The translations under genes and the position numbers were made by a program. Positions 14,123-38,626 of a stretch of DNA of 64,000 bases are shown piece by piece. The DNA comes from Promethearchaeota archaeon Loki_b31. GTDB lineage: Archaea > Asgardarchaeota > Lokiarchaeia > Sigyniarchaeales > SOKP01. Below the pieces are notes generated by a model. The model worked only from the letters and a program-made list of their open reading frames with translations, was not told where the DNA came from and made no database searches. Each line of letters begins with the position of its first letter. Within the stretch, counting starts at the first letter, position 1. The DNA lies in assembly GCA_005222975.1 (NCBI GenBank), contig NJBI01000007.1:1-64000 (forward strand). Reading direction: 5' to 3'.

Positions 14123-14911
14123 TTAATTAGAATTGTTTTCTTGAGCTATTAATGCTGCACCAATAGCCCCCGTTAGTTGAGGAAATTTAGGTGTTTCGAT
14201 TTCATATCCAAGTTCGTCTTCTAAATATTTTTTTACACCCGGGTTATTAGCGACTCCACCACAGAAAATTAATTTAGGTCCAACTCCAATACGTTTTGCC
14301 ATTCCAGCAACTCTTCTCGCAATTGATTTATGTATGCCACTTGCAATCTCTTCTTTAGAGGCTCCTCTCGCGAATAAACTTATTACTTCGCTCTCAGCGA
14401 AGACTGTACACGTGGAACTTATTGAGGCTGACTTGTTTGTTTTTAAGGCCAAGTTTCCAAATTGATCAATAGGAACTTCCAACGCGTGAGCCATGACTTC
14501 CAAAAATCGACCCGTTCCTGCTGCGCATTTGTCATTCATTTGAAAGTCAATAACATTCCCCGTTTTCGTAGATATTACAATTGCTTTACTATCTTGACCC
14601 CCAATATCTATTACGGAATGAGCATCTGGAAAGAAATATTGCACGCCCTTAGCGTGAGCTGTAATTTCAGTCACTCGATCGTCTGCTATGTCTATTGTGT
14701 TTCGACCATAACCAGTACTCATAACAAAAACATCCGCTCTTTTCAGATTATTTTTTCCTAGCATGTTATTAAATAAGTTATGACCTATTTTTTTAAAGTC
14801 GTAAGTAGAGCGTTCTGTGCGATGATCAATCAGTTTTCCATCGTTTAAAAGCACTATCTTTGTTGCTAAGGAACCAATATCTATACCAATAAAATTCTTC
14901 AATTTAATCAT
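14123..14911 (-). CDS. Acyl-CoA dehydratase activase (HgdC-like, ATPase with [4Fe-4S])
   Basis: FIGIDIGSLATK, SVIDIGGQDSKAI, NDKCAAGTGRFLEVMA, SSTCTVFAESEVISL. Confidence 0.95.
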   Translation of the reverse strand: MIKLKNFIGIDIGSLATKIVLLNDGKLIDHRTERSTYDFKKIGHNLFNNMLGKNNLKRADVFVMSTGYGRNTIDIADDRVTEITAHAKGVQYFFPDAHSVIDIGGQDSKAIVISTKTGNVIDFQMNDKCAAGTGRFLEVMAHALEVPIDQFGNLALKTNKSASISSTCTVFAESEVISLFARGASKEEIASGIHKSIARRVAGMAKRIGVGPKLIFCGGVANNPGVKKYLEDELGYEIETPKFPQLTGAIGAALIAQENNSN

Positions 14912-16826: not shown

Positions 16827-17483
16827 GTGATTTATAAAATGTCATCTAATAGGAAAATTAAAGAAGAAATAATTGCCTTACTCATAGATCATGTTCGGAT
16901 TATTTACTCTATTATTAGCGACATGGGCGTGTATTACACCACCTGGGCAGAAGACTTTGAGGCAAATAAAAAAAGTTTAGAAAAGAAAAAAAGTAAAATG
17001 CAATTATCAGAAGAAGAAGGTGACGAGCTAAAAATTCGCTTAATACAGAACTTTTCAGAGGCAGAAGCTTTTAATCTCGGAGATTACGTAGCACTAGTGT
17101 TGAAGATGGATAATGTTATTAATTATCCCCTCGAATTTGTCGATATGTTAACAAAAATTCGCTTAACTGGTAAAAGTGCAGATGAGATTAAGAAGAAATA
17201 CCACAAGTTAATAAACCAAATTATGGAAATGGCTGGTATCTTGAAAACTGCGATAAAAAACTTAAGGGATAATCCGGATAAAGTCTTTGATAACACGACT
17301 ACAATTCATGAACTTGAATCTGAAATTGACAAAACTTACAGGCAATTTCTTGAGTTTTTATATTCTAATGTTGAAGACATAAGAACTTTACTACGTATCA
17401 GGGATAGTATTGTGCTACTGGAGCAGATGGCGGACCGTATCCACGACATTTCAGACCTTATGAGAATTTTAATTTATAGTTAA
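16827..17483 (+). CDS. DUF47/PhoU-like protein
   Basis: Helical ORF with ..LESEIDKTYRQFLEFL...LLEQMADRIHDISDLM. Confidence 0.7.
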   Translation: MIYKMSSNRKIKEEIIALLIDHVRIIYSIISDMGVYYTTWAEDFEANKKSLEKKKSKMQLSEEEGDELKIRLIQNFSEAEAFNLGDYVALVLKMDNVINYPLEFVDMLTKIRLTGKSADEIKKKYHKLINQIMEMAGILKTAIKNLRDNPDKVFDNTTTIHELESEIDKTYRQFLEFLYSNVEDIRTLLRIRDSIVLLEQMADRIHDISDLMRILIYS

Positions 17484-20400
17484 TTTAATAAATTAATTGC
17501 TTGATAAATTAATTTTCTTAATTGATCTTTACTTATATTAATATTGATATAAATACTTAATATTTTTTTAGAAATTTTAGTAGGACTTGGAGTTTCATTA
17601 CGATTGAGTGGTTCTGAAATATATTGAATTATATGTATAAGCATTTTTAAGTATTGAATTATGGGATATGTAAAGTTTTGATCTTGTAAAGATATTCTTA
17701 ATCTTAAAAACTCGGGAATATCAACAGATACTAAATCTTTAAGAATTTGATCATTATCAAAATAAAAATTGTTATCTTTAAGGATTTTTAATATTCGGTT
17801 ATAAATTATTTCTCTTAAGTCGGCAGGAAAAATTGAAATAACCCAATTTCCATTTTTGTTTTTAACAATAATCTGATTAAATTTTTTAATATTTTTATAC
17901 CAAAGATCGAAATCAAGCTTCTGACTAATCATATATATTTTAATATGTTTTTTAATAGTTTCAGGTTTAGGATTGATACCATATTTTAATTTTATATAAT
18001 TTCTAATCAGTTCTAAATTACCTAATATTGTAAATAGTTTTTTAAAAATAATAGCGAATTTTTCTTGATATGGAAATTGTTTAAATGTTAAAGAATCTTG
18101 GATTGCATTCTCAATAGTAGAATCATTAATAAGATATCCATATTTAAGACAAGTTTTTAAAATAAATTGTTCAAACTCTTTTGAATACAATAATACTTTT
18201 TTATCGTTTTTTATCATATAATCATTAACATCGGCAAATACTTTTTTAGATTTTATTTCATTAGATAAGCTTATTAAAATTATACCAATATAATTTCTTC
18301 TGTAAATCCATTTTTTAGGTTTAATAATTTCAATAAACTTTCTAATGTGGTTTTTTTTTGAAATTTTAACATAATATTTAACATCCGTTCTTTTATCTTC
18401 ATATATTTTAGTTGTCTCAATATTTAAAATATTACACATATTTTTAAAATCTTCTACTAAAGGTTTTGAGGAATTAGTGAAATCAATTTGAATATGCTTA
18501 GCTCGTTTTAAAACATAAATAGAACCATCTGTATCAAATAGACCTCTTAAACAACAAATTACTAAATTACGAGAATTTATGATTATTTTAGGTACAGACA
18601 CTTGATGTAAAACTTTATTTCCTTCAATTAACCCAAAAGACTCAAGCTCTTCAACAATTTCCTTTCCATAAATTATAAGTTGTATGCCTTTTGATACTTT
18701 TGAAGGAATGTAAGAAGGAGTTTTATGAAATATCTTTGTCATTAATTTTGAAACATAATCAACATAATCTGATTCATCAATTCGATTAAGAGTGATTGTT
18801 AAACCTATGTTAAAATTTAGATTGCCATCACCTAATATAATACCACACATTTCTGATAAAATCCCGTTCATTATAAGTCCTAATTTTTTATACGGATTTC
18901 TTTTTTTTAAAGGATGTATATTAAAATGTAAACGTATTTGGTCAATATGATGATGTCCTAAACCAGTTAAATTTTGAATGTCTACTAGTTTATCATATTC
19001 TTCGAATAGAATTAAATATATTGCTAAAATATATTTTTTGATCAATAGATCTTGCTTGCTTGTAAGATCGAGTAATAAAGATTTGTTATTTAAATTTTGA
19101 TAAACATTATTTATGATAATATCAAAAAACTCTTCTTTAGGATGGTTTAAACGAAAATTAAAAATGACTATTTTATTATTTTTTAGTATTGTATAAATAT
19201 TATTAAAAATCTTTTCTCTACAACTAACCCAATTATTAGCCATAAAGAATTTTACATATAAATTTTGACTTCCTATTAATTGAATTATTGTTTTTCTTAC
19301 TCTTTCTTGATTAAAATATTCAATTTTTTCTAATATCTCCTTATTAGAATATTTTTTCTTTCCCATTTTATGATAGTATTTTAATTGTTCAATGACGATT
19401 TTTTTCAATTCCTTAAATTTATCCGTGTTGGCAATTAATTTCTTCTTTTTAACTTGATTTTTAGTAGGGGTTTTCTCATTTTCTACAGCTTCAATAAGAT
19501 TAGAGATTTCTGAAGACCATTTAATCTGGATTTTTCCATTTTCTTGTTCTTTTCTTAACTCTTTATATTTCTGCGAAATGTGTTTAAAAAATTTGCTACG
19601 CACTCGAATAACGAAAAACCTGTTCATAAGTTCCCACAAATGATTATAAAAATAATCTTTAAAAGTCCGAATATTTGCTAATAATTCTAAATGGATCGGT
19701 CCTAAACCCTGTAGTCTTTCTGTTAAGGATTTTAATCTATTCTTTTCTATTTCAGTAAGTTTTTCGTATTGAGACTTTTCATATAATTCCAAAAACTTTC
19801 GAGTCAAATCCTTGAACTTGTTATAACTCTCAAGGGCTTTTTTTAACTCGGATTTAAGCTCAGCGTTGCATTCTTCCTCAGAAGACTCTTTTATCCATTG
19901 TTTAAGGGTTGTTTTCCAACTCTCTTCTTCAATTTCTTTTATTTTTTCACTTTCACTTTTAGAATTTTTAATCTTTTCCGATCCTAATTCTCGTTGCTCT
20001 AACCATTGGCTATAACCATTTGTTTTTTTTTTAGAATATATAGGTCTTCTGCCCGTTTCTAGGCGATATAACTCTTGAAGATGTTCGGTTTCCTCTTCGT
20101 CCGATTCTTCACTTACTAGCTTTGTACTTTCCTCAAGGAAATCTTTATTAGCTTCGGATTCGCTTTCGATAGCATCTAATTCTGGTTTACAAACTTCTAA
20201 ATTTTCTTTATTCTCAACATTTTTATTTGAATCTTGTTCGTTAATCTCTAAATCGTGTTTTTTAAGCTTTTCATTCACAATCGATTCTTGATCTTTTTCA
20301 ATTATTTTTTCTAATTTCTCTTCAAACTTAGTTGTTTCTATGGCTTCCTCTACTCTCGCATCTATCTCTTCTTGCGATTCCCCTTGTTGAACCAATTTCT

Positions 20401-21565
20401 CTTCTAATTCAACAGCCTGCTCTACTAGATCTACCCTATCCAGATTTTCTTTTAGATCCTCTTCGCTCGCTTCGTCTTCGTGATCAACTAGCTTTAATTT
20501 CTCTTGTTGTAGCTCTTCGTATAATTTTTCTGCGTTTTTAAGCGTTTCGTACATCTCTTCCGCTTCGTGCATTACTTCTTCTATTTCTTCAAGGGGTTTT
20601 CCTTCTCGATCTAATTTATCGCGAATTTCCCATAAATATTCAAATTCCTCTGTACTAGTAATTTTCTTAGATGCATCCTCTTCTTCGAGTTCATCGCTCT
20701 TATTACCACTTTCTTGGTCACCCTTTAATTCCTCTGTTACTTCTTGCCTAAGTTCTTCTGTTTCTTGTTCCTCTATACTATTTTGATCGTTTACTACCTC
20801 TTTTTCCTTTAATTTTTCATAATATTGCTCAGCATAATACGCCGCATTTTCTTGTTCAGCTTGTGGTTCAACGTTCTCGTCTTCAGCTTTTAATTCTCTG
20901 GCATGTTCGGCTAATTCTTCAACATCCTTTATGAATTCAATCTCATCGGTATTTACAATCGGTTCCGTATCGTCTTGATATTCTTCTGGGCGAATCTCGA
21001 TTTCTTCTTCTTGTTCTTGGTGTTCCATATGATCTTCTATTTCACTAGTTAAAACTGTAGAAGTTGATTGAGAATCAATATTTTCGTTGTAATATTCCAC
21101 AGGCTCTTCCTCTTGGTGTTCCTCGTTTCGAATGTCATTATTGTCCTTCTCATTTTTTTCTCCCTCACCATGCAAATCTTCGCTCCAATTAATCTCGTCC
21201 CATATAGTTTTTTCACGCTCACCTTGCTTGTCTTCGCTCCAATCAATATCATCCCATATAGTTTTTTCTCGCTCACCATGTTTATCTTCGCTCCAATCAA
21301 TATCATCCCATATAGTTTTTTCTCGCTCACCATGTTTATCTTCGCTCCAATCAATATCGTCCCATATACTCTCTTCTTTTTCTTCTGGTAATTCTTGATC
21401 TAAATCACCTTCAAATTCCCCACTTTTAATTTGATCGTCTTCAAAATCTTTTTCTTCCTCTAATTCAGAGTCATCATTAATGTCATCTTCTTTTTTCTCT
21501 TCATCTTCTCCTTTCTGTTCGTCTAAATATCCCTTATCATCTTCAACTTCGCTTCCAAAATCCAT
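17480..21565 (-). CDS. Giant acidic/coiled-coil protein with C-terminal LAGLIDADG-type domain
   Basis: 4x IWDDIDWSEDKHGEREKT-type repeat; MCGIILGDGNLNF and CLRGLFDTDGSIYV match LAGLIDADG motifs P1/P2. Confidence 0.75.
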   Translation of the reverse strand: MDFGSEVEDDKGYLDEQKGEDEEKKEDDINDDSELEEEKDFEDDQIKSGEFEGDLDQELPEEKEESIWDDIDWSEDKHGEREKTIWDDIDWSEDKHGEREKTIWDDIDWSEDKQGEREKTIWDEINWSEDLHGEGEKNEKDNNDIRNEEHQEEEPVEYYNENIDSQSTSTVLTSEIEDHMEHQEQEEEIEIRPEEYQDDTEPIVNTDEIEFIKDVEELAEHARELKAEDENVEPQAEQENAAYYAEQYYEKLKEKEVVNDQNSIEEQETEELRQEVTEELKGDQESGNKSDELEEEDASKKITSTEEFEYLWEIRDKLDREGKPLEEIEEVMHEAEEMYETLKNAEKLYEELQQEKLKLVDHEDEASEEDLKENLDRVDLVEQAVELEEKLVQQGESQEEIDARVEEAIETTKFEEKLEKIIEKDQESIVNEKLKKHDLEINEQDSNKNVENKENLEVCKPELDAIESESEANKDFLEESTKLVSEESDEEETEHLQELYRLETGRRPIYSKKKTNGYSQWLEQRELGSEKIKNSKSESEKIKEIEEESWKTTLKQWIKESSEEECNAELKSELKKALESYNKFKDLTRKFLELYEKSQYEKLTEIEKNRLKSLTERLQGLGPIHLELLANIRTFKDYFYNHLWELMNRFFVIRVRSKFFKHISQKYKELRKEQENGKIQIKWSSEISNLIEAVENEKTPTKNQVKKKKLIANTDKFKELKKIVIEQLKYYHKMGKKKYSNKEILEKIEYFNQERVRKTIIQLIGSQNLYVKFFMANNWVSCREKIFNNIYTILKNNKIVIFNFRLNHPKEEFFDIIINNVYQNLNNKSLLLDLTSKQDLLIKKYILAIYLILFEEYDKLVDIQNLTGLGHHHIDQIRLHFNIHPLKKRNPYKKLGLIMNGILSEMCGIILGDGNLNFNIGLTITLNRIDESDYVDYVSKLMTKIFHKTPSYIPSKVSKGIQLIIYGKEIVEELESFGLIEGNKVLHQVSVPKIIINSRNLVICCLRGLFDTDGSIYVLKRAKHIQIDFTNSSKPLVEDFKNMCNILNIETTKIYEDKRTDVKYYVKISKKNHIRKFIEIIKPKKWIYRRNYIGIILISLSNEIKSKKVFADVNDYMIKNDKKVLLYSKEFEQFILKTCLKYGYLINDSTIENAIQDSLTFKQFPYQEKFAIIFKKLFTILGNLELIRNYIKLKYGINPKPETIKKHIKIYMISQKLDFDLWYKNIKKFNQIIVKNKNGNWVISIFPADLREIIYNRILKILKDNNFYFDNDQILKDLVSVDIPEFLRLRISLQDQNFTYPIIQYLKMLIHIIQYISEPLNRNETPSPTKISKKILSIYININISKDQLRKLIYQAINLLN
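21165..21380 (-). repeat. Four 54-bp tandem repeats inside a CDS
   Basis: CGCTCC anchor at 21181, 21235, 21289, 21343 (54-nt spacing); encodes IWDDIDWSEDKxGEREKT; outer limits approximate. Confidence 0.85.
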
Positions 21566-21622: not shown

Positions 21623-23587
21623 TTAAATGTTATCGTCTGCCGTTTTCATTAAATAGCGCTCCGCGTTTGTTATAACTAAAGCGTGTCTTTCCCAAAGAGT
21701 TAGAAGCATTTCTCTTTCCCTCATATTTCCTGTGAAGATTTGATTGGCTGGATATCCTAATTGGAATAAGATTTTATTCCTTGCGGAATCAATTGCAACG
21801 TCAAGGAGTAAATGAGGATGTTGATCTGCAAAAATGATTCCTATGCCTTTAGCTCTCCATTCGTTAACATTTCTTGAAAAATGAGAGTTAGTTTTATTTT
21901 TCATTATAAATTCCGGAGATTCGGGATGTTTATCGTTTGATTTACCAACAATTCGATGTGCCTCGTCCATTGCGATGAGATATTTTAATTTATTGTTTTT
22001 TTCCTTATCTATAGAAATTAGAATCTCAATCATATTAAGAATCAACATACCTAACAAATGTTGTTCGTCCTCTAGACATTTAGTTAAGTCAAGTAAGACT
22101 GTTTCCCCTTCCTTCCATTTTATAAACCATTCTGGAATATCGCTTGATTCACCCTCAAGTAGGTTAAGCGTAGCTTCAAGATCAGGTCTATAAAACATTT
22201 CACTAATCCTGCGCTTGAACGCAGTACGAATGTGTTGTTTAAATTCAGGTTCCCACGATTTTGCTTTCATATAATCGTCAACGCAACTAAAAAATTCTCT
22301 GACTTCTTTAGGAAATTCTTTATGTTTGGAATAACAGATTTGAAATGTTTCAGAAAATATCCCTGGTCCCATATGTTTTAATCCTAAACAAGCCGCAAAA
22401 ACGTTACTAGTCTCTTTAATTGAGATCATTGTTCTATTAAAAGGTATAATATATGGCACTCTAAATTTTTCAGAGGGGAACTTATAAACGTGAGCCATAG
22501 GATAATCGTCCTCTAAGTATGGCTTCGCTAAGTTTAGGATTAATATTCCAACATCTGGTCTTTTATTATGTAAGTCGTTTAATATCATTTTTATCAATGT
22601 TGATTTTCCTGTTCCAGTTTTCCCAAAAATATTCAAATGGGTCGTGAGACCGTCTATTTCAATTAATCCTAAATCAGTACTTAAGACTCCATCTTTCAAT
22701 TTTTCTCCGATATAAATGAAATTAGGATCGTTTTTAGAAATCGGTAAATTGATTGAATTTCTGTTTTCTAGTATAGGAGGATTTAACAAAGGCATTTCAC
22801 GTGGGATATCGAAGTCGATCTCATCAGATCTCATAAATTTAGGCATTACCTCTCTGGGAAAATCTTGACCTGGACCAAGTCCATAATCAGATCTCTTTGG
22901 AAATACATTGCAGGTTAATAGATCAATCCAATTAATTGGAGAGAGCGACTTATATTCTGCTTTAATATATGGTGGTATGGACATATCGGAAATAAAATAT
23001 CGAAGTACTGCATTAATTGAAGATTCTTGCTTATCGAAATTCGTAAAATAATTTGGGTTAGGATTTAAAGAAATGAAAATTCTCAACATATAACTCAATG
23101 GATCTGGTTGTATATGTAAATCATCCCTTTTCCATAAAATAAATATATTTGCATCTATTTTTCTTTGAGGTGTCTTATAATAATTGATTATCTTCCTAAG
23201 AAACTGAAATTTTATTGGAGGATGTTGGGGAATAATTATTTCATAAAGTCGTCTATTTATCTCTAAATATTTCGAATAGAGAGGATACACGCTCACTTTT
23301 CCATCTAATCCTTTATATTTCTCTTGTAGATTCATCAATAAGGCCTCACCTAATTCTTCAGCCAATTCGGCGGTTTTAGCATACAAGAAGAAATCCCATG
23401 AAAAACCCTTATTTACATTAAATTCCACTCCATAAGTTAAATTATCTCCAAAGGGATCATATAACCACGAAGTACGCAATAATTTGTTATGTCTTATTTT
23501 AGGATCTCCCGTTACATCATCACATACACAGGGCAATACTTGTGTTATTTTAATTCTTGAATTGTATCCTACTATTTCCATTTCCAT
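21623..23587 (-). CDS. HerA/VirB4-like P-loop ATPase (DUF87-type)
   Basis: HLNIFGKTGTGKSTLIKMIL Walker A; KYLIAMDEAHRIVG Walker B; FADQHPHLL. Confidence 0.82.
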   Translation of the reverse strand: MEMEIVGYNSRIKITQVLPCVCDDVTGDPKIRHNKLLRTSWLYDPFGDNLTYGVEFNVNKGFSWDFFLYAKTAELAEELGEALLMNLQEKYKGLDGKVSVYPLYSKYLEINRRLYEIIIPQHPPIKFQFLRKIINYYKTPQRKIDANIFILWKRDDLHIQPDPLSYMLRIFISLNPNPNYFTNFDKQESSINAVLRYFISDMSIPPYIKAEYKSLSPINWIDLLTCNVFPKRSDYGLGPGQDFPREVMPKFMRSDEIDFDIPREMPLLNPPILENRNSINLPISKNDPNFIYIGEKLKDGVLSTDLGLIEIDGLTTHLNIFGKTGTGKSTLIKMILNDLHNKRPDVGILILNLAKPYLEDDYPMAHVYKFPSEKFRVPYIIPFNRTMISIKETSNVFAACLGLKHMGPGIFSETFQICYSKHKEFPKEVREFFSCVDDYMKAKSWEPEFKQHIRTAFKRRISEMFYRPDLEATLNLLEGESSDIPEWFIKWKEGETVLLDLTKCLEDEQHLLGMLILNMIEILISIDKEKNNKLKYLIAMDEAHRIVGKSNDKHPESPEFIMKNKTNSHFSRNVNEWRAKGIGIIFADQHPHLLLDVAIDSARNKILFQLGYPANQIFTGNMREREMLLTLWERHALVITNAERYLMKTADDNI

Positions 23588-24546: not shown

Positions 24547-24918
24547 GTGAATACTATGAAAGGGAAAATGAAATTTTATTTATTGTTAGGATTTTTCCAA
24601 TTAGTGCTTATATTGATTGTGTTTTTTAGTATAGATGGAATTATCACTATGGTTGCAGCACAAACAGAGAGTTATGATTACTTTAATTCTCCAACAGCGG
24701 CGATTTTAGCTATTTCAGCAGCAATATCATTTTCAGCAGCAGTAATAGGAAGTGCAATCGCTTTAAAAACAGTAGGTACAGCAGCAATATCCGCTCTATC
24801 CGAAAGAGAAGAAAGTTTTTTTAAAGCATTTTTAGTCGTTGCTTTTTGTGAGGCATTAGCAATATATGGTTTAATAATAGCGATCCTTTTCTTGACAAAA
24901 ATTCCTAACCCAGCATAA
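24547..24918 (+). CDS. A/V-type ATP synthase proteolipid subunit K (c)
   Basis: Two-TM hairpin plus leader; AAISFSAAVIGSAIALKTVGTAA and AFCEALAIYGLIIAILFL with ion-binding Glu. Confidence 0.9.
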   Translation: MNTMKGKMKFYLLLGFFQLVLILIVFFSIDGIITMVAAQTESYDYFNSPTAAILAISAAISFSAAVIGSAIALKTVGTAAISALSEREESFFKAFLVVAFCEALAIYGLIIAILFLTKIPNPA

Positions 24919-24959: not shown

Positions 24960-26021
24960 ACGAGTGAAATTATTCCGTCCTACGCTTATACATATATTAA
25001 AATCGATTATTTAAAACCATTAATAATTGATGATGACACTTTACTAAAACTTAAAAGAATCTACGATATTGATGATTTCATGGAATCTATTAGACTTTAT
25101 TATCCTAATTTAGATTTTAAAGAAAATACTATTGAAGATATTGAAGTTGCTCTTAAAAATAATTACATTAAGCTAATTGGTAAAATTTTACATTATTCAC
25201 CCCAAAACATGAGAATATTCTTAAGAAATTATCTCATGAAATTTGAAATACAAAATCTCAAACAAATAATCATCAGTTTAATTTTAGGAATTAATCAAGA
25301 AGAAAAAAGAAAACACATTAATTTTTTAGTTGAAGAATATTTAGATAACACGGAATTCATTGAAGATTTGCTTAAATTTACTTCTTTAGATGAAATACAA
25401 TTATTTCTTAAAAGAACTAAATACAATATAGCTATTAGAGAAGGTATTCTTTACTATAAGAAAAATAAAGAAATTTTTATTCTGGAAGCTTTTTTAGATC
25501 AATTATATTATAAGCAACTTATAATACAACTGGAAAATTTAAATAGAAAAGAGAAAACAATGATATCGTTGTTTGTGAAATACAAAACTGAAATTTATAA
25601 TATAAATGTGATTTATAGGGGAATAAAAAATAAAATTGAACCAAAATTATTATCTCAATTTCTTGTAAATAATTATTTATTCCTAGATGAAAGTAAATTA
25701 GAACATTTGTTAAATCTTGATAATATTGATGAATTTATATCAGTTATTAAAGAATATTTGAAGAATATTAAGGAAATAAAACCATTTTTTATCAAGCTAA
25801 AAATTAATCAAAAGCACTTAATTAGGTCAATTGAACAATTTTATATAACTTATTATTTTAAGAAATTTAAGATTAAAATTGACGACATTGATTTTTTCAC
25901 CATTTACAAAATTTTAGAAATACTTATAAAAAAAGAAAAAGAAATACGATTTGATATTTTACCAAAAGTAATTAAAATCCTTCACTATAAGTTTAAAGCA
26001 TTAAAAACGCAGAAATTTTAA
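24960..26021 (+). CDS. A/V-type ATP synthase subunit C, apparent ACG start (first ATG at 25080)
   Basis: In-frame upstream SEIIPSYAYTYIKIDYLKPLIIDDDTLLKLKRIYDIDDF resembles the subunit C N-terminus; no ATG/GTG/TTG in frame upstream to the TAA; AAGGTG 8 nt before ACG. Confidence 0.7.
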   Translation, partial: TSEIIPSYAYTYIKIDYLKPLIIDDDTLLKLKRIYDIDDFMESIRLYYPNLDFKENTIEDIEVALKNNYIKLIGKILHYSPQNMRIFLRNYLMKFEIQNLKQIIISLILGINQEEKRKHINFLVEEYLDNTEFIEDLLKFTSLDEIQLFLKRTKYNIAIREGILYYKKNKEIFILEAFLDQLYYKQLIIQLENLNRKEKTMISLFVKYKTEIYNINVIYRGIKNKIEPKLLSQFLVNNYLFLDESKLEHLLNLDNIDEFISVIKEYLKNIKEIKPFFIKLKINQKHLIRSIEQFYITYYFKKFKIKIDDIDFFTIYKILEILIKKEKEIRFDILPKVIKILHYKFKALKTQKF

Positions 26022-26073: not shown

Positions 26074-26385
26074 ATGCCAATTTTTAAATGGGTTGAAGAA
26101 ATCGAAAATATTTATGAAAATTTGATTGAAAACGCCAAAAAAGAAAGTTTAGAAGACATTGAGAAACTAAACGCTTCACTTGAAAAGGATATAGAAAAAA
26201 AAAATCATAATAATCAGGAAATTATTAATTCTGCCTTAAAAACACTTTCAAAAGAAGTTAATGAAAAATCGTTAAAATTTGGAGAGTCAATATCGAAATT
26301 ATGTAACAAAATAGAAAAAAATTATTATGAAAATAAGGAAGGACTAATGAATTTAATATTTGAGAAATTAGGATTTGATTTTTAA
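26074..26385 (+). CDS. A/V-type ATP synthase subunit H (peripheral stalk)
   Basis: Position and coiled-coil composition. Confidence 0.75.
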   Translation: MPIFKWVEEIENIYENLIENAKKESLEDIEKLNASLEKDIEKKNHNNQEIINSALKTLSKEVNEKSLKFGESISKLCNKIEKNYYENKEGLMNLIFEKLGFDF

Positions 26386-26702
26386 TGCCAGATAAAAAAA
26401 TACATGTATTAGGCTACGACGAAATAGTTTTATTGTTTGGTCTTTTAGGTATTGAAGGAACGATAATTAAACATAATGAAGATTTTTTAAAAATTTTTAA
26501 AAATTTAATAAAAAAAACTTCTGTTGCTCTGATAATTATATACATGGATTTATCAGACGAAAATCTCGAATTTATAACAGATTTTAAAATAAATAATAGA
26601 ACGCCATTTGTATATTTATTACCAGATTTTTTTCAACAAGATATAAAGAATCAAGATAAGATATTCAACAAAATTCACGAATTAATAGAAGAAATTATAT
26701 AA
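26385..26702 (+). CDS. A/V-type ATP synthase subunit F
   Basis: IHVLGYDEIVLLFGLLGIEGTII; operon position. Confidence 0.8.
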   Translation: MPDKKIHVLGYDEIVLLFGLLGIEGTIIKHNEDFLKIFKNLIKKTSVALIIIYMDLSDENLEFITDFKINNRTPFVYLLPDFFQQDIKNQDKIFNKIHELIEEII

Positions 26703-26736: not shown

Positions 26737-27441
26737 GTGAAAGAGAGATTTGGAAAACTAAGTTTGTATTTAATAAATCAAGCTGAAAATGAGATAAAGA
26801 AGATCAATCAACAATCCCTTTTTCAAATGGCAGAAGTTAGAAAAAAAGCTAGGGAAAGAACTTCAGAAAGCTCTTTAAAATTGAAAGCGCATTTTAACGA
26901 AACATACAATAAACTATTAAATAATTCTCTATCTTCTTATCTCTTGAAAATTAAAGAAGAAGTATTGAAATCAAAAAACAAGTTAATGTTAGAACTTATT
27001 TCAGATTTAAAAGACTTAATAAAAGACAAAATAAAAAATAATTATTCGAGCTACATTATCCTTTTACTAAAAAATCTTGAAAATATCAAGCATTTTGTAG
27101 ATAAACCACCGGAGATTATCATTCACTTAAATTCAATAGATTTTAAATATTTCAGCAATAATATGGAAAAGATTGAAAGTATATTAAGAAATAAAGTAAA
27201 TTTAATCAAGTCAAAAGAAGAATTTACGGGAGGTTTTAAGTGTGTAATTATGACCGGACATTTATCTTACGATTATACGATTAAAAATCAATTAAAGAAG
27301 AGCACATCGATTATAGAAATTGAGTTTTCAAAGATTTTTTCTGACTCCGAGCCTGATATTAAAGCTCTAGAAAATAATTATATACAATTTATCAAAAATC
27401 AAAAATTAGCTGTAAACGAATATTTAAAGAAATATGAATGA
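26737..27441 (+). CDS. A/V-type ATP synthase subunit E
   Basis: Coiled-coil N-terminus, EFTGGFKCV C-terminal region; operon position. Confidence 0.8.
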   Translation: MKERFGKLSLYLINQAENEIKKINQQSLFQMAEVRKKARERTSESSLKLKAHFNETYNKLLNNSLSSYLLKIKEEVLKSKNKLMLELISDLKDLIKDKIKNNYSSYIILLLKNLENIKHFVDKPPEIIIHLNSIDFKYFSNNMEKIESILRNKVNLIKSKEEFTGGFKCVIMTGHLSYDYTIKNQLKKSTSIIEIEFSKIFSDSEPDIKALENNYIQFIKNQKLAVNEYLKKYE

Positions 27442-29275
27442 AACTAACGAAAAAATTAAGTCCGGATATATCTCATCTATAAACGGTTCCTTAATAGAAA
27501 TAAAAGGCTTAGAAAACTATGTACGGCTAAATGATTTAATTAAGGAGTCTAAACATAAAATTTTAGGTGAAGTAATCCAAATTTATTCAGATCATGTTAC
27601 TGTTCAATGTTTTGAAAATACTTCTAATTTAAAATTAAATGAAGAGGTTATTAGTTTACAAGAACCCTTATCAATGGAATTAGGTCCTGGTTTATTAGGA
27701 AATATCTTTGATGGTATTCAAAGACCATTGGAAGCAACCTTTTTGAGTTCTGAAGGCGGAGGGTTTTTAAAGAGAGGCGTTGATTTACCCGCTTTATCAA
27801 GAACGAAAGATTGGCATTTTAAACCAGTAAAAAAGATAAATGATTATGTAAGTACGGGGTATGTGGTTGGAACCGTTCAGGAAACAGAATTTATTGAACA
27901 TAAAATTATGATTCCATTAGGAATTTCCGGAAAAATAACTTATATTGCAAAGGAAGGAGAATATACAGTCAGTGATGAAATTTACCGCTTAAAAAATGGT
28001 TCCAAAGAAAAATCGTTTAATATGATTCAAAAATGGCCAATCACCAAAAATAGGCCTTATAAAGAGCGAGGCTTTCCTAATGAACCACTAATTACGGGTA
28101 TGAGGGTAATCGATCTATTATTTCCAATAGTAAAGGGAGGGACAGTTGCCGTTCCGGGAGGTTTTGGAACGGGCAAAACGGTAATCCAACAATCCCTAGC
28201 AAAATGGTGTAACGCAGATATAATTATTTTTGTTGGATGCGGGGAGCGTGGGAATGAGATTGCAGATGTCTTAAAACAGTTTTCTGAAATAACAGATCCA
28301 AAAAGTGGACGCCCGTTATTAGAACGAATTGTTATCTTAGCTAATACATCTAATATGCCCGTATCTGCGCGAGAAGCAAGTATATTTTCTGGAGTTACAA
28401 TTGGGGAATATTATAGAGATATGGGGTATGATGTTGCAGTTTTAGCAGACAGTACTTCAAGATGGGCAGAATCATTACGGGAAATATCAGGGTTATTAGA
28501 AGAAATGCCAGCCGAAGAAGGATATCCCGCTTATTTACCCTCTAAAATTTCTAGTTTTTATGAAAGAGCCGGTGTTGTTAAGATATTGGGAGAAAAAGAT
28601 TCTGGAAAAGAGAAATTCGGGTCTATAACAATTATTGGTTCAGTATCACCGCCTTCAGGAGATTTCAGTGAGCCTGTTACTTCAACTACAAAGCGTTTTG
28701 TTCAAGCTTTTTGGGCATTAGATGCGAGTTTAGCATATTCTAAACATTATCCTGCGATTAATTGGTTAAATTCATATTCAAAATATCCTGAATTCATCTC
28801 AGATTGGTGGTTTGAAAGAGATATTTATTGGCCTGAGATAGATATAGATTGGTACGAGTGTAGAAAACAAATAAATAGCCTCCTATCTCAAGAAAACGAA
28901 CTAAAAAATGTCACCCAATTAGTTGGTGAAGAAAACTTACCAGAAAATCAACAATTTATCCTATTCATTTCAAAATTGATTAGAAATGGTTTATTAATTC
29001 AAAATGCCTTTGATTCTATAGATTGTTTTACAGATGTTAAAAAATTAATTGGACTAGTAAAACTCATTCTATTACTATTTAAAGAGGGCAAACAACTCTT
29101 AAAGCAAGGTTTTCTAATTGAAGATATCAAAGAACTCGATGTTGTAAATGATATTCTTAGGATTTGCCGTTCTGTTCCTAATAATAACTTTGATCAAATA
29201 GAAAAATTAAGAAAGAAAATGCTAAACGAAATAGAGTCATTAAAATTAACATATGGTGTTTTTAGGAAAAAATGA
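27434..29275 (+). CDS. A/V-type ATP synthase catalytic subunit A (copy 1, canonical)
   Basis: [46 protein letters not shown]. Confidence 0.97.
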
Positions 29276-30708: not shown

Positions 30709-31308
30709 ATGAGTCTACAGAAAAGGTTAACTTTTGCTGTTAAAGGCGAAAATTTTCTAAAATTTAAATTAGAACAAATAATATTTGAGATAAAAAAAAA
30801 TTGGGGTAATTATTTAAAACAACGTGAAATCTTTTTAAAATTATATAAAGACACTATGATTAAACTTAATCAAACTTATAAAGAAATGGGTAAACGAGAA
30901 TTTAATTCGATTAGTAAATTAAGTAAAATCCAATATAATCCAAAGATTGCTGTAAACTTTATAAAAAGGATTGGAACATTAGTGCCAATAATAGATTATG
31001 AACTGATACGGGAAGAATTGCTTCCAGCTTACTCTTTTGAAAATACATCTCATTATCTTGATGATTTGATTATTCTTTTAATAAAATTTTTTCAAAGCCT
31101 CATAATTGTTGCACAGTCTGAAGACCTATTGTTGAAACTCTCTCAAACTTTTAAAAAAATAAATCGTAGGATAAATGGTCTGAAGAATGTAATAATTCCT
31201 GAACTACAAATAGACATTAAAAAAATTAAAGCTGTATTAGAAGAAATTGAAAGAGAAAATTATGTTCGTTTGAAAAATACAAAAAATTTGATTATAAAAA
31301 ATGCTTAA
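30709..31308 (+). CDS. A/V-type ATP synthase subunit D
   Basis: Size, coiled coil, RRINGLKNVIIPEL motif, operon position. Confidence 0.88.
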   Translation: MSLQKRLTFAVKGENFLKFKLEQIIFEIKKNWGNYLKQREIFLKLYKDTMIKLNQTYKEMGKREFNSISKLSKIQYNPKIAVNFIKRIGTLVPIIDYELIREELLPAYSFENTSHYLDDLIILLIKFFQSLIIVAQSEDLLLKLSQTFKKINRRINGLKNVIIPELQIDIKKIKAVLEEIERENYVRLKNTKNLIIKNA

Positions 31309-33612
31309 GTGAGAAAAAAAAAAATGACAAAGAAAAGCTCAATGGAGTTATTTAAGGTAAATATTAATCATAATTACAAGGATCTTCTACTACAACACCT
31401 ATCCCAACTTAATCTAGTTCACATTAAAACGAAACCTGAAATAAGCGACATTATTAAAAAAGATAAAGTTTTATTTGATAGAATTAAGAAATTAAGCCAA
31501 AATTTAGAAACCTTATTCAAAAACCTTAATATTACTGAATCTGACTTCCAAAAATTAATATTTGAAAAAGAAGAGAGAAAAGCATTTGAAGCTAAAGATA
31601 TAGACGATTTGTTAAATCAAATATTGAGTGAAATTAATTTTTATTCAAACCGTGTTAATGAGTTAAAAAAATATATGATCACTATCAAAGTGGAATTGGA
31701 TAAAATAAATTTGATTCATGGAAGTTACATTTTTTTGGAAAAATATGAGTTAACGCGAGATAAATTATCGAAATTTAATCGTTTAGAATTTAAAGCCTTT
31801 ACAACCTTCTCAAAGAACCTCGAAAATATAGAGAATCTTTTTGAATTTTCTCATTTTCCGAATTTTTTTCAGTATGATTTTTTAAGCGATGAAAGAATTG
31901 CCTTTTTCGTTATCTATCCAAAGGAACAAGAAGAGGCATTTAGAGAGAGATTACGTTTCATTCATGCCGAGGAAATACCGATTCTTAAAAAATATTTGCT
32001 CTCAAATGGGATAAACTTTCCTCGTATAGCAGATGAAATTAAGTTTATTGTGACATCTTTAAATAAATATCAAAAGGAATTAGAACGATTAAGAGACGAT
32101 AACATACTTCTATTTGCTGCTACGAATGAGATCACGCAAAATATAGAAGAATATGATTGGGCTTCGCATCAATTCGAAGAATTATCTTTAAATCGATTAA
32201 GTTTGAGTTTTTACGTTCCACAAGAAAAAAAACAAGAAATACAAAAGGGGTTGATTGAAAAGTTCCAAGATCAAATAACGATTGAATCAATCGCTATTAC
32301 AAAAAATAAATCTGTTAGCCTAAAAGAAGATAAAAACCATATACATTCAGGAAAATTACCAGATTCCAAAAGAAAAGATTCTTCATTAAAGGAAGAACCG
32401 ACGAATAATAATAAGGAAATTAAAAAGGATTTAAGAAGTACAGCTCCTACAATTATGAAGAATAATTTCTTTGTAAGGCCCTTTGAAACTATTACTAAAA
32501 TGTACGGTGTTCCTGCTTATTCAGAAATTGATCCCACTCCCTTTTTGGCAATAACATTTCCACTTTTGTTTGGATTGATGTTTGGGGATATAGGGCACGG
32601 AATAATATTAATTATCTCAGGTTTGATTGGAGTATTTGTCTTTAGGAACAAAAAAAGTACAGATTTTATAAATTTTTGCTGGATCATTTTGTATTGTGGA
32701 ATCGGTTCTATACTAGTTGGGATTTTATATGGCGAATTTTTTGGGATGCATAACATTGAATTATTTGGAATGGTTTTTTTACACTTAGAACCTGTTACCA
32801 TTCCAATATTTAATATTACTTTACACAATCCATTAAATAATATAATGGTCGTTTTTAAGTTTGCTATATTAATTGGAGTAATACATATTAATTTGGGCTG
32901 GTTCATACAATTTTTGAATTATTGGAAACAGCATAGAAAATATTTAGGTTTTACTGACTCTTTAATTAAAATATGGTTATTAACTGGAGGAACTATTTTA
33001 ATTTTTACTTTTGGTTTTGATATCTATAGATGGATGGAACCTCCTTACCCAATTTTGTTGCCCTTGCTCCCAGGTATATTATTAATACTCTTAAAACCTT
33101 TTGGGAAACTTTTCCATGTTTCTTATTTGAAAGAAGAGACAATTGGAGGTCTTATAGGGGAAGGTACAATGGAGTCATTTGAAACATTATTGTCGATAAT
33201 GAGCAATGTAGCATCTTATATAAGATTACTAGCGTTAGCTTTAGCACATATCTCTTTAATGGTCGCAATTATATCAATGGGGAATTTATTTCAAGGTGAT
33301 GGGATTATTAACGAGATAATTAATATAATAGTATTGATATTTGGTAATATGTTTGTTATTTTACTAGAAGGATTACTTGTTTTTATAAATACCATCAGGC
33401 TCCATTTTTATGAATTTTTCTTCAAATTCTATCAAGGAACTGGAGTTACATATATTCCTTTTTATTTAGACGATAAATATTCTATTATTTCCTTTAAATT
33501 ATACGCCATAAAAGATGTTATTTCCGAAGAAATAGATAAAGAGATTGAATCGAAGAAAGCCCATGAGGATATAATTAAGGCAGAAAAATATATTTCTAAA
33601 AAATATTTATAA
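31309..33612 (+). CDS. A/V-type ATP synthase subunit I (a)
   Basis: ITFPLLFGLMFGDIGHGI, NVASYIRLLALALAHISLM. Confidence 0.95.
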   Translation: MRKKKMTKKSSMELFKVNINHNYKDLLLQHLSQLNLVHIKTKPEISDIIKKDKVLFDRIKKLSQNLETLFKNLNITESDFQKLIFEKEERKAFEAKDIDDLLNQILSEINFYSNRVNELKKYMITIKVELDKINLIHGSYIFLEKYELTRDKLSKFNRLEFKAFTTFSKNLENIENLFEFSHFPNFFQYDFLSDERIAFFVIYPKEQEEAFRERLRFIHAEEIPILKKYLLSNGINFPRIADEIKFIVTSLNKYQKELERLRDDNILLFAATNEITQNIEEYDWASHQFEELSLNRLSLSFYVPQEKKQEIQKGLIEKFQDQITIESIAITKNKSVSLKEDKNHIHSGKLPDSKRKDSSLKEEPTNNNKEIKKDLRSTAPTIMKNNFFVRPFETITKMYGVPAYSEIDPTPFLAITFPLLFGLMFGDIGHGIILIISGLIGVFVFRNKKSTDFINFCWIILYCGIGSILVGILYGEFFGMHNIELFGMVFLHLEPVTIPIFNITLHNPLNNIMVVFKFAILIGVIHINLGWFIQFLNYWKQHRKYLGFTDSLIKIWLLTGGTILIFTFGFDIYRWMEPPYPILLPLLPGILLILLKPFGKLFHVSYLKEETIGGLIGEGTMESFETLLSIMSNVASYIRLLALALAHISLMVAIISMGNLFQGDGIINEIINIIVLIFGNMFVILLEGLLVFINTIRLHFYEFFFKFYQGTGVTYIPFYLDDKYSIISFKLYAIKDVISEEIDKEIESKKAHEDIIKAEKYISKKYL

Positions 33613-33631: not shown

Positions 33632-34159
33632 ATGAAAACCGAAAATAAGAAAGAAAGCTCATCCAAGAAAAATAATTTTCTCAAAATATTACTACTAATT
33701 ATTTATCTAATTGTTTTAATCTTTTTATATATTATATTGATGGAATTTGGAATAAATCCACTTCTTATTATTTTAATACTAGGATTCGTGTTGTTGCTGT
33801 TTGTAGGATCCTTATTTAGGAAAAAAAAGCAAAAATCAATTTATTCGAAAATGTTTCCTGATAAAAAAAAAAGAAGAAGTCAAGATTTTCATCGAAAATT
33901 AGAATTGAAGATAGAAAGGACACCTGAGAAACCAGCTCAAAAAGATTTTAAAGAAGTGAATCTAAACTTTAAGTATCGCAAATCCCTTATTAATAAATGC
34001 GAAAATTGCGGGATGATCATAACAAGCTACAGTAAAAATTGCCCTACATGTGGTCAAGCACTTGGAATGAAAGAAATTGTTAAGAAATGTAAAAATTGCG
34101 GAATGTTAATTACAAAGTCTGTGAAAGTATGTCCAATTTGTAGAAAGCGAACAATATAA
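33632..34159 (+). CDS. Membrane protein with tandem zinc ribbons
   Basis: Two N-terminal TM segments; KCENCGMIITSYSKNCPTCG and KCKNCGMLITKSVKVCPICR. Confidence 0.7.
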   Translation: MKTENKKESSSKKNNFLKILLLIIYLIVLIFLYIILMEFGINPLLIILILGFVLLLFVGSLFRKKKQKSIYSKMFPDKKKRRSQDFHRKLELKIERTPEKPAQKDFKEVNLNFKYRKSLINKCENCGMIITSYSKNCPTCGQALGMKEIVKKCKNCGMLITKSVKVCPICRKRTI

Positions 34160-34201: not shown

Positions 34202-36031
34202 ATGGTCACAGAAACAAATAATTCTAATTTGGGTTTTATATCTGCTGTTAATGGATCATTAGTGGAGGTTAAAGGATTAGAAAATCAGGTTCGGCTTCAT
34301 GATTTAATTAAGATTAGTAACTATAACATTATTTGTCAGGTAATTCAAATCTACTCGGATCATGTAATAGCCCAATCTTTTGAAAGTACTAATAGTATAA
34401 AATTAAACGATAAAGCAATTAATCTTAACGAACCTTTATCGATGGAGTTAGCACCAGGTTTATTAGCAAATGTTTTTGATGGAATTCAGAGACCTTTAGA
34501 TCTTACTTTCAGCCACTTTAAAGAAGGAAGATTAAGAAGAGGCCTTGAATTTCCTTCTTTATCAAGGACAAAAAAATGGCATTTTATTCCATCGAGAAAA
34601 ATAAATGGTTCTTTAAGTACTGGAGATGAAATTGGGACCGTTCAAGAAACATCCTTTTTTAAACATAAAATAATGATTCCTCCTGAAAATTCTGGTATTT
34701 TATCGTTTATTGTTGACGAAGGTGATTATACAATTATCGATGAGATATATACCTTAAGAAAGGAGAATGTAGATAAATCTTTTAGTATGTTACAAAAATG
34801 GCCAGTCACTATGAGCAAACCTTATAGCGAAAAAAATCAACCTAGCGAACCTTTACTAACTGGCTTGCGTATTGTAGATCTATTGTTTCCTGTAGCAAAA
34901 GGTGGTACTTTTGCGGTTCCAGGAGGGTTTGGAACTGGTAAAACAATTATTTCACAACATATAGCTAAATTTTGTAACGCAGATGTCGTTCTATATATAG
35001 GATGCGGGGAGCCTGGCAATGAGATTGCAAATTTTCTAAAACAATTCGCGGAAACTATTGATCCTAAAACGGGAAGACCTTTATTAGAACATATTGTTCT
35101 TATTGCCAACACTTCAAATATGCCCGTGTCTGCTCGCGAAGCAAGTCTTTTTTCAGGTATTACAATCGCAGAATATTATAGAGATATGGGGTACGATGTT
35201 GCCGTTGTAGCAGATAGTATTTCAAGATGGGCAGAATCTTTAAGAGAGATTTCAGGGCTATTAGAGGAAATGCCTGCTGAAGAAGGTTATCCTGCGTATT
35301 TGCCATCGAAACTATCAAGTTTTTTTGAGCGAGCTGGTGTTATTACAACTTTAGGATGTGATGCTTATGGTAGAAAAAAAAAAGGATCCATAACAATCAT
35401 AGGATCGATATCTCCACCAGCGGGAGATTTTAGCGAACCGGTTACCGCAGCTACTAAACGTGTTGTTCAGGGGATTTGGGCTTTAGATCCTAAATTAGCA
35501 TATCTAAAACATTATCCTGCAATTAGTTGGATCAGTTCATACTCCAATTATCCTGAGTATGTAGCAGAATGGTGGCGCGAGAGAGACATTGTTTGGCCTG
35601 AGATAAATTTAAACTGGTTTGAGTGTAGAAAACAAGTAAATGAGATTTTAGCAAAAGAAAACGAGTTGAAATATCTTATCCAGCTACTAGGACTAAAAAA
35701 TTTAGCTGAAGATCAAAGGTTAGAAATTTTTACGGCAAATCTAATAAGAAATGCAATTTTAATTCAAAATGCTTTCAACGTAGTAGATAGTTATACGAGT
35801 AGTAGAAAATTGTTAGGGTTAGTAAAGGTAATACTTTTATTATATAATAAAAGTAGATCACTCGTAAAACGAGGTTTTCTAATTGATGAGAAGAAGTGCG
35901 ATGAAGTTCTCATTGAGGTTATGAAAATTAGTCATTATGTTCCTAATGAAAATTTTGAACAAATTGAAGAGCTAAGGGATAAAATTAATAATGAATCTTT
36001 AGGTTTAGTTTTTAATGTTCATCGAAGATAG
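34202..36031 (+). CDS. Second A/V-type ATP synthase A subunit (divergent paralog)
   Basis: [10 protein letters not shown] but GCGEPGNE and [16 protein letters not shown]; full-length paralog of 27434..29275. Confidence 0.93.
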   Translation: MVTETNNSNLGFISAVNGSLVEVKGLENQVRLHDLIKISNYNIICQVIQIYSDHVIAQSFESTNSIKLNDKAINLNEPLSMELAPGLLANVFDGIQRPLDLTFSHFKEGRLRRGLEFPSLSRTKKWHFIPSRKINGSLSTGDEIGTVQETSFFKHKIMIPPENSGILSFIVDEGDYTIIDEIYTLRKENVDKSFSMLQKWPVTMSKPYSEKNQPSEPLLTGLRIVDLLFPVAKGGTFAVPGGFGTGKTIISQHIAKFCNADVVLYIGCGEPGNEIANFLKQFAETIDPKTGRPLLEHIVLIANTSNMPVSAREASLFSGITIAEYYRDMGYDVAVVADSISRWAESLREISGLLEEMPAEEGYPAYLPSKLSSFFERAGVITTLGCDAYGRKKKGSITIIGSISPPAGDFSEPVTAATKRVVQGIWALDPKLAYLKHYPAISWISSYSNYPEYVAEWWRERDIVWPEINLNWFECRKQVNEILAKENELKYLIQLLGLKNLAEDQRLEIFTANLIRNAILIQNAFNVVDSYTSSRKLLGLVKVILLLYNKSRSLVKRGFLIDEKKCDEVLIEVMKISHYVPNENFEQIEELRDKINNESLGLVFNVHRR

Positions 36032-36795: not shown

Positions 36796-37704
36796 TTGGT
36801 ATTAAGAGAATCTTCTGCCGCGGGAATTTATTATCCACGATCCAAATCGGATTTAATTAAAATGTTAGAAGAATCCTTTTTAGATAAAGAATTTGGACCA
36901 AGTGAAAAATTCGACTCTTTAAACCAAAAAACAAGAACAATATTTGGTGGATTATCTCCACACGGGGGTTATGTTTATTCTGGTAGCTGTGCGGCGCATA
37001 CATATTTACATTTGTTTAAGGAAAAAATCCCCGATACTGTTGTAATATTAGCCACTGAAGATTTAGGATATAACAACATTGCTTTATTAGAAGTAGGCGA
37101 ATGGGAAACTCCGTTAGGTAACCTAGAGGTTGATAGTGATTTGTCTCAAAAATTGCTAAAAACGAGTAGCATGGTTAAAGGAGATGATTCTGCTTTTGTT
37201 GGATTTCCCTTTGGAAGAGAGTATTATATTGATGTACAATTGCCGTTTATTAAATATTGTGCGTTAAAGAGAGAGATAAAAATCTTGCCAATTATTATTT
37301 CTATAATGGATTATGATAAATTAGATAAATTATCCAAAGATATCGCGAGAGTAGTCCAATCCTTAAACAAAGATATAGTATTTATAGGTTCTACAGATAT
37401 GAGTCATATTATTTGTAAAGATGAATTTACTGCTGGATTTAAAGTGCAAGAAATGCTCTTAGCAGATAAATCTGTAATCAAATCGTTTACAAAATTTAAC
37501 CCAAAGAAGACTTTTTTTGATGCGTCAAGATTTTCTATAAAAGGGCCACAAATTCTTACCACATTAATGCTAATATGTAAAAGGATGGGTGCAAACGAAT
37601 GTAGAGCATTAAATTATTACACTAGTTATGACAAGGGTGGAGGATCTGGTCCATGTAAATATAATGCAGGATATTTTTCGGGGATAATTATAAAAGATAT
37701 TTAA
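36796..37704 (+). CDS. MEMO1-family protein, divergent active site
   Basis: SPHGGYVYSGSCAAHTY, WETPLGNLEVD, STDMSH; TTG start. Confidence 0.88.
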   Translation: MVLRESSAAGIYYPRSKSDLIKMLEESFLDKEFGPSEKFDSLNQKTRTIFGGLSPHGGYVYSGSCAAHTYLHLFKEKIPDTVVILATEDLGYNNIALLEVGEWETPLGNLEVDSDLSQKLLKTSSMVKGDDSAFVGFPFGREYYIDVQLPFIKYCALKREIKILPIIISIMDYDKLDKLSKDIARVVQSLNKDIVFIGSTDMSHIICKDEFTAGFKVQEMLLADKSVIKSFTKFNPKKTFFDASRFSIKGPQILTTLMLICKRMGANECRALNYYTSYDKGGGSGPCKYNAGYFSGIIIKDI

Positions 37705-37735
37705 TAGAAAAATAACAATAATTATTTAGAAGAAG

Positions 37736-38626
37736 GTGACAAAATTGGTTATAAGAAAAGCATCACATGCGGGAAGTTGGTACCCTGGTAAAAAAGAGGA
37801 TTTAATAAAAAACCTAGAATATGCTTTTTCTGAAAAAGAGTTTGGGCCAGGAAAATTACCTGAAACGCTAAATCAAGATAGTAGGAATATTATTGGAGGT
37901 GTATCTCCTCATGCGGGATATACTTTTTCTGGAAGATGTGCTGCCTTTACGTATTTAAACTTATTTAAAGAAAGAATCCCGGATACAGTTATCGTATTAG
38001 GGACTGATCATGTTGGCTATGGAAAGGTGGCCCTATTAGGAGATGGAGCTTGGGAAACGCCTTTAGGAAACTTACAAATTGACGATGAATTATCTAAAAA
38101 GATTTTAGATACAAGTGAAATTATTGTTGAAGATCGTTCTGCCTTCACCGGCTTCATGGAACAAGAACACAATATTGAAATACAATTACCTTTCATTAAA
38201 TATTGTGCTAAAGATAAAGATGTAAAAATAGTAACACTAAAAATAGGAATTAGAAGGGATTATAGCGTATTTGAAAAAATAGCATCTGATATTTCTGCAG
38301 CAATTAAGGCGTTAAATAAAGATATTGTTCTTGTAGCATCGTCTGATATGTCACATAAAGAGGTTTTTGATAAAAATCAATTAAGTGAGTTTAAGAAATT
38401 TGATCAAGATGTTATTGATGCTTTTGTAGAATTTAATCCTAAAAAAACTCTTTCAGCTGCTTCAAAAACAACCGTATGCGGAGCCCAAACAATAACGACT
38501 TTAATGTTAATTTGTGAAAAATTAAACGCAACTAAAGGTGAATTGTTAAAATATTATACTAGTAGCGATATTAGGGGAGGATATGGATATTGTGTTGGTT
38601 ATTTTTCGGGGATTATAGTAAAATAA
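37736..38626 (+). CDS. MEMO1-family protein
   Basis: SPHAGYTFSGRCAA, LGTDHVGYG, SSDMSH, VCGAQT; real start may be TTG at 37745. Confidence 0.9.
   Translation: MTKLVIRKASHAGSWYPGKKEDLIKNLEYAFSEKEFGPGKLPETLNQDSRNIIGGVSPHAGYTFSGRCAAFTYLNLFKERIPDTVIVLGTDHVGYGKVALLGDGAWETPLGNLQIDDELSKKILDTSEIIVEDRSAFTGFMEQEHNIEIQLPFIKYCAKDKDVKIVTLKIGIRRDYSVFEKIASDISAAIKALNKDIVLVASSDMSHKEVFDKNQLSEFKKFDQDVIDAFVEFNPKKTLSAASKTTVCGAQTITTLMLICEKLNATKGELLKYYTSSDIRGGYGYCVGYFSGIIVK

Follow-up and report, generated by a model that had tools for sequence, protein, structure and literature searches.

Why should an archaeal rotary ATPase operon carry a second gene for catalytic subunit A, altered at a residue that is near-invariant in other subunits A? 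The common view is that a rotary ATPase requires three equal catalytic sites, and Asgard archaea are the archaeal phylum closest to eukaryotes. The question is raised by a stretch of 64,000 nucleotides (hereafter the window), positions 1 to 64,000 of contig NJBI01000007.1 of Promethearchaeota archaeon Loki_b31 (assembly GCA_005222975.1), a 3.5-Mb metagenome-assembled genome (MAG) of Lokiarchaeia that is 92% complete and 6% contaminated. The A/V-type ATPase operon found here has the order K-C-H-F-E-A-B-D-I-Z-A', where Z is a Zn-ribbon gene and A', the last gene, encodes a second subunit A with proline in place of the arginine of the GER motif. In this study, we provide evidence that this exchange is conserved throughout a family of Lokiarchaeia, and propose that A' is probably a conserved but inactive member of the rotary motor, which it would slow or regulate.

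A second subunit A with an altered GER motif

An earlier reading made from the letters alone (the sequence-only reading) had reported a second subunit A with GER changed to GEP by a CCT codon and with an intact P-loop, and both open reading frames (ORFs) proved to be intact, with GCGERGNE in A and GCGEPGNE in A' (Table 1). Its placing of the gene 3 kb downstream, after subunit I, needs correction: 4.9 kb separate the end of A from the start of A', 3.5 kb separate B from A', and a gene for a 175-amino-acid (aa) membrane/zinc-ribbon protein, Z, lies between I and A'. The two proteins share 63% identity and 82% positives over 612 aligned columns, and A' has each of the four subunit-A Pfam domains above cut-off (PF02874, PF16886, PF00006 and PF22919), the bulge (Xtn) domain among them. 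A' scores 688 bits with the NCBIfam subfamily NF003220 (cut-off 470). The equivalog TIGR01043 gives 682 bits for A' and 756 for normal A against a cut-off of 972, and does not separate the two, because even the canonical copy falls short of it. With the subunit B model PRK04196, A' reaches 123 bits, under the cut-off of 349, and its P-loop is not degenerate. By these sequence matches A' is a subunit A by descent and not a non-catalytic subunit B; we do not file it as a catalytic A subunit, since the defining GER arginine is proline in all 37 copies described below. In prediction A' folds like A: the best Protein Data Bank matches of the AF2 model (predicted TM-score 0.87) are V/A-ATPase A subunits at TM 0.85-0.92. 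The model says nothing on the GEP site itself, because its local confidence (pLDDT) falls below 50 at residues 269-276, the GEP arm.

Distribution of A' and conservation of the proline

The pattern CGEPGNE was searched in 83 genomes of the class with the reversed pattern as control, and GEPGNE in 228 Asgard genomes. CGEPGNE was found once per genome in 37 of the 83; every one of these 37 belongs to family f1 (genera g1, g5, g6, g7, g8 and g9), and the reversed pattern had zero matches in the same 83. Carriers of A' thus make up 37 of the 65 genomes of f1, and none was found elsewhere among the 228 Asgard genomes, where two extra GEPGNE matches turned out to be other reading frames and not subunit A. 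In one genome (G029, L232:1157-3061), A' lies on its own contig away from the ATPase operon, reads CCGEPGNE and has the longest A' branch.

Proline occupies the position of the GER arginine in 37/37 A' proteins. Arginine stands there in all 56 subunits A of the family, in all 19 from other Asgards and in 75 of 75 GER motifs from a sample of loci in other phyla, in keeping with the near-invariance that the sequence-only reading had stated. The proline codons are 17 CCT, 12 CCA, 5 CCG and 3 CCC, and their history includes at least 16 synonymous and no nonsynonymous changes over an A' clade length of 8.15 substitutions per site. Many synonymous changes with no amino-acid change, all copies keeping proline, remove error and drift as explanations; the proline is maintained by selection in A'.

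The second difference once cited as evidence, ADSISRW in A' against ADSTSRW in A, is not diagnostic and is dropped: the variable residue is Ile in 21, Thr in 15 and Met in one of the 37 A' copies, and ADSISRW, being lineage-specific and present once in an outgroup A, was ruled out as a second catalytic change.

Several f1 genomes without A', six of them in the same genus, show I-Z followed directly by a tRNA endonuclease gene, which is a clean absence. The sequence-only reading had named GER in the copies of relatives, decay in the ratio of nonsynonymous to synonymous change (dN/dS) and relatives lacking the duplicate as signs against it. All 37 orthologues carry GEP, and dN/dS indicates constraint; relatives without A' do exist, and their absence is clean within a family where A' is common. 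That A' is decaying, or stems from an error in sequencing, is hardly credible. Patchy presence in f1, together with dN/dS values somewhat above those of A in several pairs, would fit decay, but proline and open frames in 37/37, four different proline codons, constraint across genera and the many separate genome assemblies that carry A' refute it.

Divergence and selection

Two exchanges are fixed in 37/37 A' copies, Arg272Pro and Ile317Leu (A numbering; L316 in A'), and Asn277 and Leu435 (A' numbering) are nearly so; Arg to Pro is the sole change at a known catalytic residue that is fixed throughout A'. Lys248 and Thr/Ser249 of the P-loop, the catalytic Glu271, the Walker-B Asp339 and Arg343 of ADSxSR (A numbering) are kept, with the P-loop GxxxxGK[TS] and the glutamate each in 37/37. 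A has 129 invariant columns; conservation in A' is still 94% or more at 110 of these, and the bulge domain keeps 21 of 21. By the NG86 method dN/dS is mostly 0.1-0.2 in A', with 0.28 in one shallow pair, and mostly 0.07-0.16 in A: A' is under purifying selection, in several pairs slightly weaker than that on A. Full-length copies have open frames, and neither frame loss nor the relaxed constraint expected of a pseudogene was found. The suggestion of the sequence-only reading that A' may bind nucleotide yet turn over poorly, with a regulatory role, thus appears supported by the kept motifs and the fixed proline; overall, its interpretation, which included a possible mixed A/A' hexamer, is partly supported.

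A compensating basic residue was sought in A' and in B and ruled out. No new basic residue is fixed among the 37 A' copies, and no column of B clearly separates carriers of A' from non-carriers, so that no compensation is seen; Arg355 of B, the arginine-finger candidate by motif, is kept in 72/72. Z as an A'-specific partner was likewise ruled out, being present in f1 genomes without A'. Membrane pyrophosphatase occurs in 53 and complex-I-type antiporter subunits in four of the 65 f1 genomes. Neither evidently divides carriers from non-carriers, so that no link of A' with other ion pumps is seen.

Several subunit A ORFs are much longer, 1124-1175 aa (L150, L151, L167, L168, L230 and L231; genomes G033, G035, G044, G052, G070 and G084), and their match breaks at the P-loop, near query residue 247-260. 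Such a break would be expected of an intein at the known VMA site, and the long ORFs may hold a putative intein; it occurs in none of the A' copies.

Operon context and the single subunit B

PF00006 matches in the whole genome of the window are exactly A, B and A', so the absence of a second B, which the sequence-only reading had stated for the window, extends to the whole 92%-complete MAG. One B per genome is also the rule in nearly all genomes examined. The order ...A-B-D-I-Z-A' recurs in genera g1, g6, g8 and g9, and nearly all carriers have A' at the operon end. In one genome assembled as a single 3.3-Mb contig (G076; L208, L209), the operon is split, with E-A-B-D at about 2.19 Mb and I-Z-A' at about 3.06 Mb, which may be a real rearrangement or an assembly error.

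With one operon and one shared B, and with A' full-length and complete in its domains, A' could also form its own ring (A'3B3 or A'3B3DF) on the membrane part, giving a locked or very slow motor and two kinds of complex without mixed rings. We regard this as decidedly unlikely, as A and A' are 63% identical, nothing points to a B or D partner of their own for either, and nothing known prevents mixing.

Evolutionary history of A'

Two trees were built, one of 112 A and A' proteins under a simpler model and one of 48 rows under a slower model. The first unites all A' in a single clade (bootstrap 100). In the second, the A copy of genus g6 stands beside A', and a single A' clade is not rejected (approximately unbiased (AU) test, p 0.54). 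A duplication at the base of the family was also tried: a single clade holding every A of the family is rejected by the AU test (p 0.008), yet no longer so once the early-branching G060 is removed (p 0.065). In genus g6 (L130 in G028; L205 in G058), the first ~400 columns of A and A' from G028 show unusual likeness, often 80-90% per 60-column step, which may reflect gene conversion or slow change; A' of G028 retains the proline despite its likeness to A there. The patchy presence of A' is likely due to loss, or to transfer of the operon end between genera. Another genome (G017, L152) has a divergent ATPase operon with a different gene order that branches outside the class, and may owe it to contamination of that MAG.

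Possible role of A' in the rotary motor

In the binding-change mechanism three sites work in turn, and one dead site should therefore limit the whole ring. In homologues the GER arginine holds the gamma-phosphate. In the tight state of Enterococcus hirae, A-Arg262, Lys238 and the Arg finger of B all contact the gamma-phosphate (PMC5095293), and in Thermus A/R258 moves in and helps to zip the open site (PMC8904598). The E. coli mutant betaR182Q has an ATPase activity of 0.020 units as against 42.0, a loss of about 2000-fold, with no ATP synthesis and no binding of phosphate (Pi), while MgADP binding in E. coli F1 is independent of betaR182 (PMC3268026).

We propose that A' is a pseudo-catalytic subunit A that enters A3B3 rings in place of some A and brakes the motor, a reading to which we give an even chance. 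Subunit A would have been duplicated within one Lokiarchaeia family to give A', whose sequence shows proline in place of the gamma-phosphate-binding arginine and the nucleotide-binding motifs retained. The conservation of A' suggests that its assembly surfaces are retained as well, and A' is probably expressed together with the operon; neither its codon bias nor its start-site context pointed to a level of expression. Judging by its kept domains and operon position, A' may replace A in a fraction of the A3B3 rings and pair with the sole B. By analogy with mutants of the same arginine, the A'-B site would bind MgADP and be unable to hold Pi or to close tightly on ATP, so that a ring with at least one A' would be very slow or stalled in both directions. 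The A':A ratio would then set the share of working motors, and such a brake might save ATP or the ion gradient at low energy.

Alternatively, A' might be catalytically competent but altered, the proline reshaping the arm helix and another group substituting for the arginine; turnover might then be slow, the preference between ATP and ADP shifted, or one direction favoured. All other catalytic residues are kept in nearly all A', as expected of a working site, and the fixed residue is proline and not a random one; however, no compensating basic residue is fixed in A' or B, and Lys as well as Gln at E. coli beta182 abolishes both synthesis and Pi binding (PMC3268026). This makes altered catalysis unlikely.

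Several points weigh against the brake as proposed. A' need not be fully dead: F1 with alanine at other catalytic residues still rotates, 1000-10000 times slower, which makes a strong brake likelier than a full lock (PMC5380711). The matching of residue numbers between the A, V and F types depends on aligned motifs. A' is missing in many relatives, in a good number of which the operon end is assembled, and is therefore dispensable. Kept surfaces, as judged from conservation, are no proof that A' enters the same ring, and the rotor-contacting C-terminal domain is the most drifted part of A', with a mean identity of 55% as against 66% in A. This faster C-terminal drift, and the long-branched A' of G029 far from the ATPase operon, would suit a protein active away from the ring, which might for instance assist assembly, sense ADP or titrate B or D. 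We consider such a role quite improbable, given the four subunit-A Pfam domains, a bulge domain intact at all invariant columns and the place of A' at the operon end in nearly all carriers.

Comparison with known rotary ATPases

A' shares fold, domains, P-loop, catalytic Glu, Walker-B Asp and operon setting with the A/V-type catalytic subunit A of Thermus, E. hirae and Pyrococcus, but has Pro for the GER Arg, and is encoded beside a normal A without a B of its own. In the proposed model it resembles F1 alpha and V1/A1 B as a duplicated catalytic subunit that has lost hydrolysis; unlike these, it is a recent paralogue of A with P-loop and Glu retained, and would take the place of A, not of B. 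Loss of catalysis in one rotary ATPase paralogue has been placed before the last universal common ancestor (PMC10656485). The E. coli F1 catalytic-arginine mutants are changed at the same position, with loss of Pi binding and of the tight ATP site predicted for A' likewise (PMC3268026); those are laboratory forms, whereas A' is natural, conserved and carries Pro. An allosteric action of pseudo-active sites in rings has also been reported (PMC10624635).

Walker A motifs were examined in a large phylogeny of ATP synthases, where a search for key terms brought up no passage on a Lokiarchaeia paralogue (PMC10656485). No earlier description of A' was found in the literature searched, which is no proof of novelty. 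An operon-encoded subunit that lacks the key catalytic Arg and keeps the rest of its site suggests regulation by subunit exchange, for which we found no description in the same literature. More tentatively, and with somewhat less than an even chance, A, A' and B may be three kinds of subunit in the ring of a naturally occurring rotary ATP synthase, whose working fraction is set by the conserved pseudo-catalytic A' mixed in: a young repeat, in one archaeal family, of the ancient origin of the non-catalytic subunits of all rotary ATPases. A' could serve as a young model for that origin, and f1 offers species with and without A' in one family for comparison.

Gene inventory and other genes of the window

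The genes of the operon are collected in Table 1. H and E had no Pfam match above cut-off, and their names rest on order and length.

Table 1. Genes and sites of the A/V-type ATPase operon in the window (window coordinates)
Feature	Description	Position	Strand	Basis
K	membrane ring (c/K) subunit	24547..24918	+	Pfam ATP-synt_C
C	AC39-type subunit	25080..26021	+	Pfam vATP-synt_AC39
H/G, F, E	peripheral-stalk and rotor-tip genes	26074-26385, 26385-26702, 26737-27441	+	order, length; conserved in relatives
A	canonical catalytic subunit A, 613 aa, GER intact (Arg272)	27434..29275	+	intact ORF, GCGERGNE
B	sole non-catalytic subunit B of the genome	29272..30663	+	arginine-finger candidate Arg355 kept
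D	central rotor subunit	30709..31308	+	position, length, homology, operon context; order conserved in relatives
I	membrane stator subunit (a/I)	31309..33612	+	window ORF; order conserved in relatives
Z	175-aa protein, hydrophobic N-terminal segment and double zinc ribbon	33632..34159	+	also in genomes without A'
A'	second subunit A of A/V-type ATPase, 609 aa, putatively pseudo-catalytic	34202..36031	+	intact ORF; Pfam, NCBIfam, AF2
A' P-loop	GGFGTGKT, residues 241-248, intact	34922..34945	+	Lys 37/37, Thr 35/37, Ser 2/37
A' Pro271	codon CCT, replaces gamma-phosphate-binding Arg of GER	35012..35014	+	Pro in 37/37 A'

Two adjacent Memo-like genes follow A' and a tRNA endonuclease gene (36796-38626, plus strand); the window genome shares this pair with a few close relatives, and most relatives show one. 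Upstream of the operon, a 1361-aa ORF on the minus strand (17480-21565) combines an acidic N-terminal repeat region of WDDIDWSEDKHGEREKT units with a LAGLIDADG domain and adjoins a HerA-like ATPase gene (21623-23587). Also on the minus strand, three genes for the D component of 2-hydroxyglutaryl-CoA dehydratase lie close together with a BadF-type activator (4278-5588, 11522-14013 and 14123-14911).
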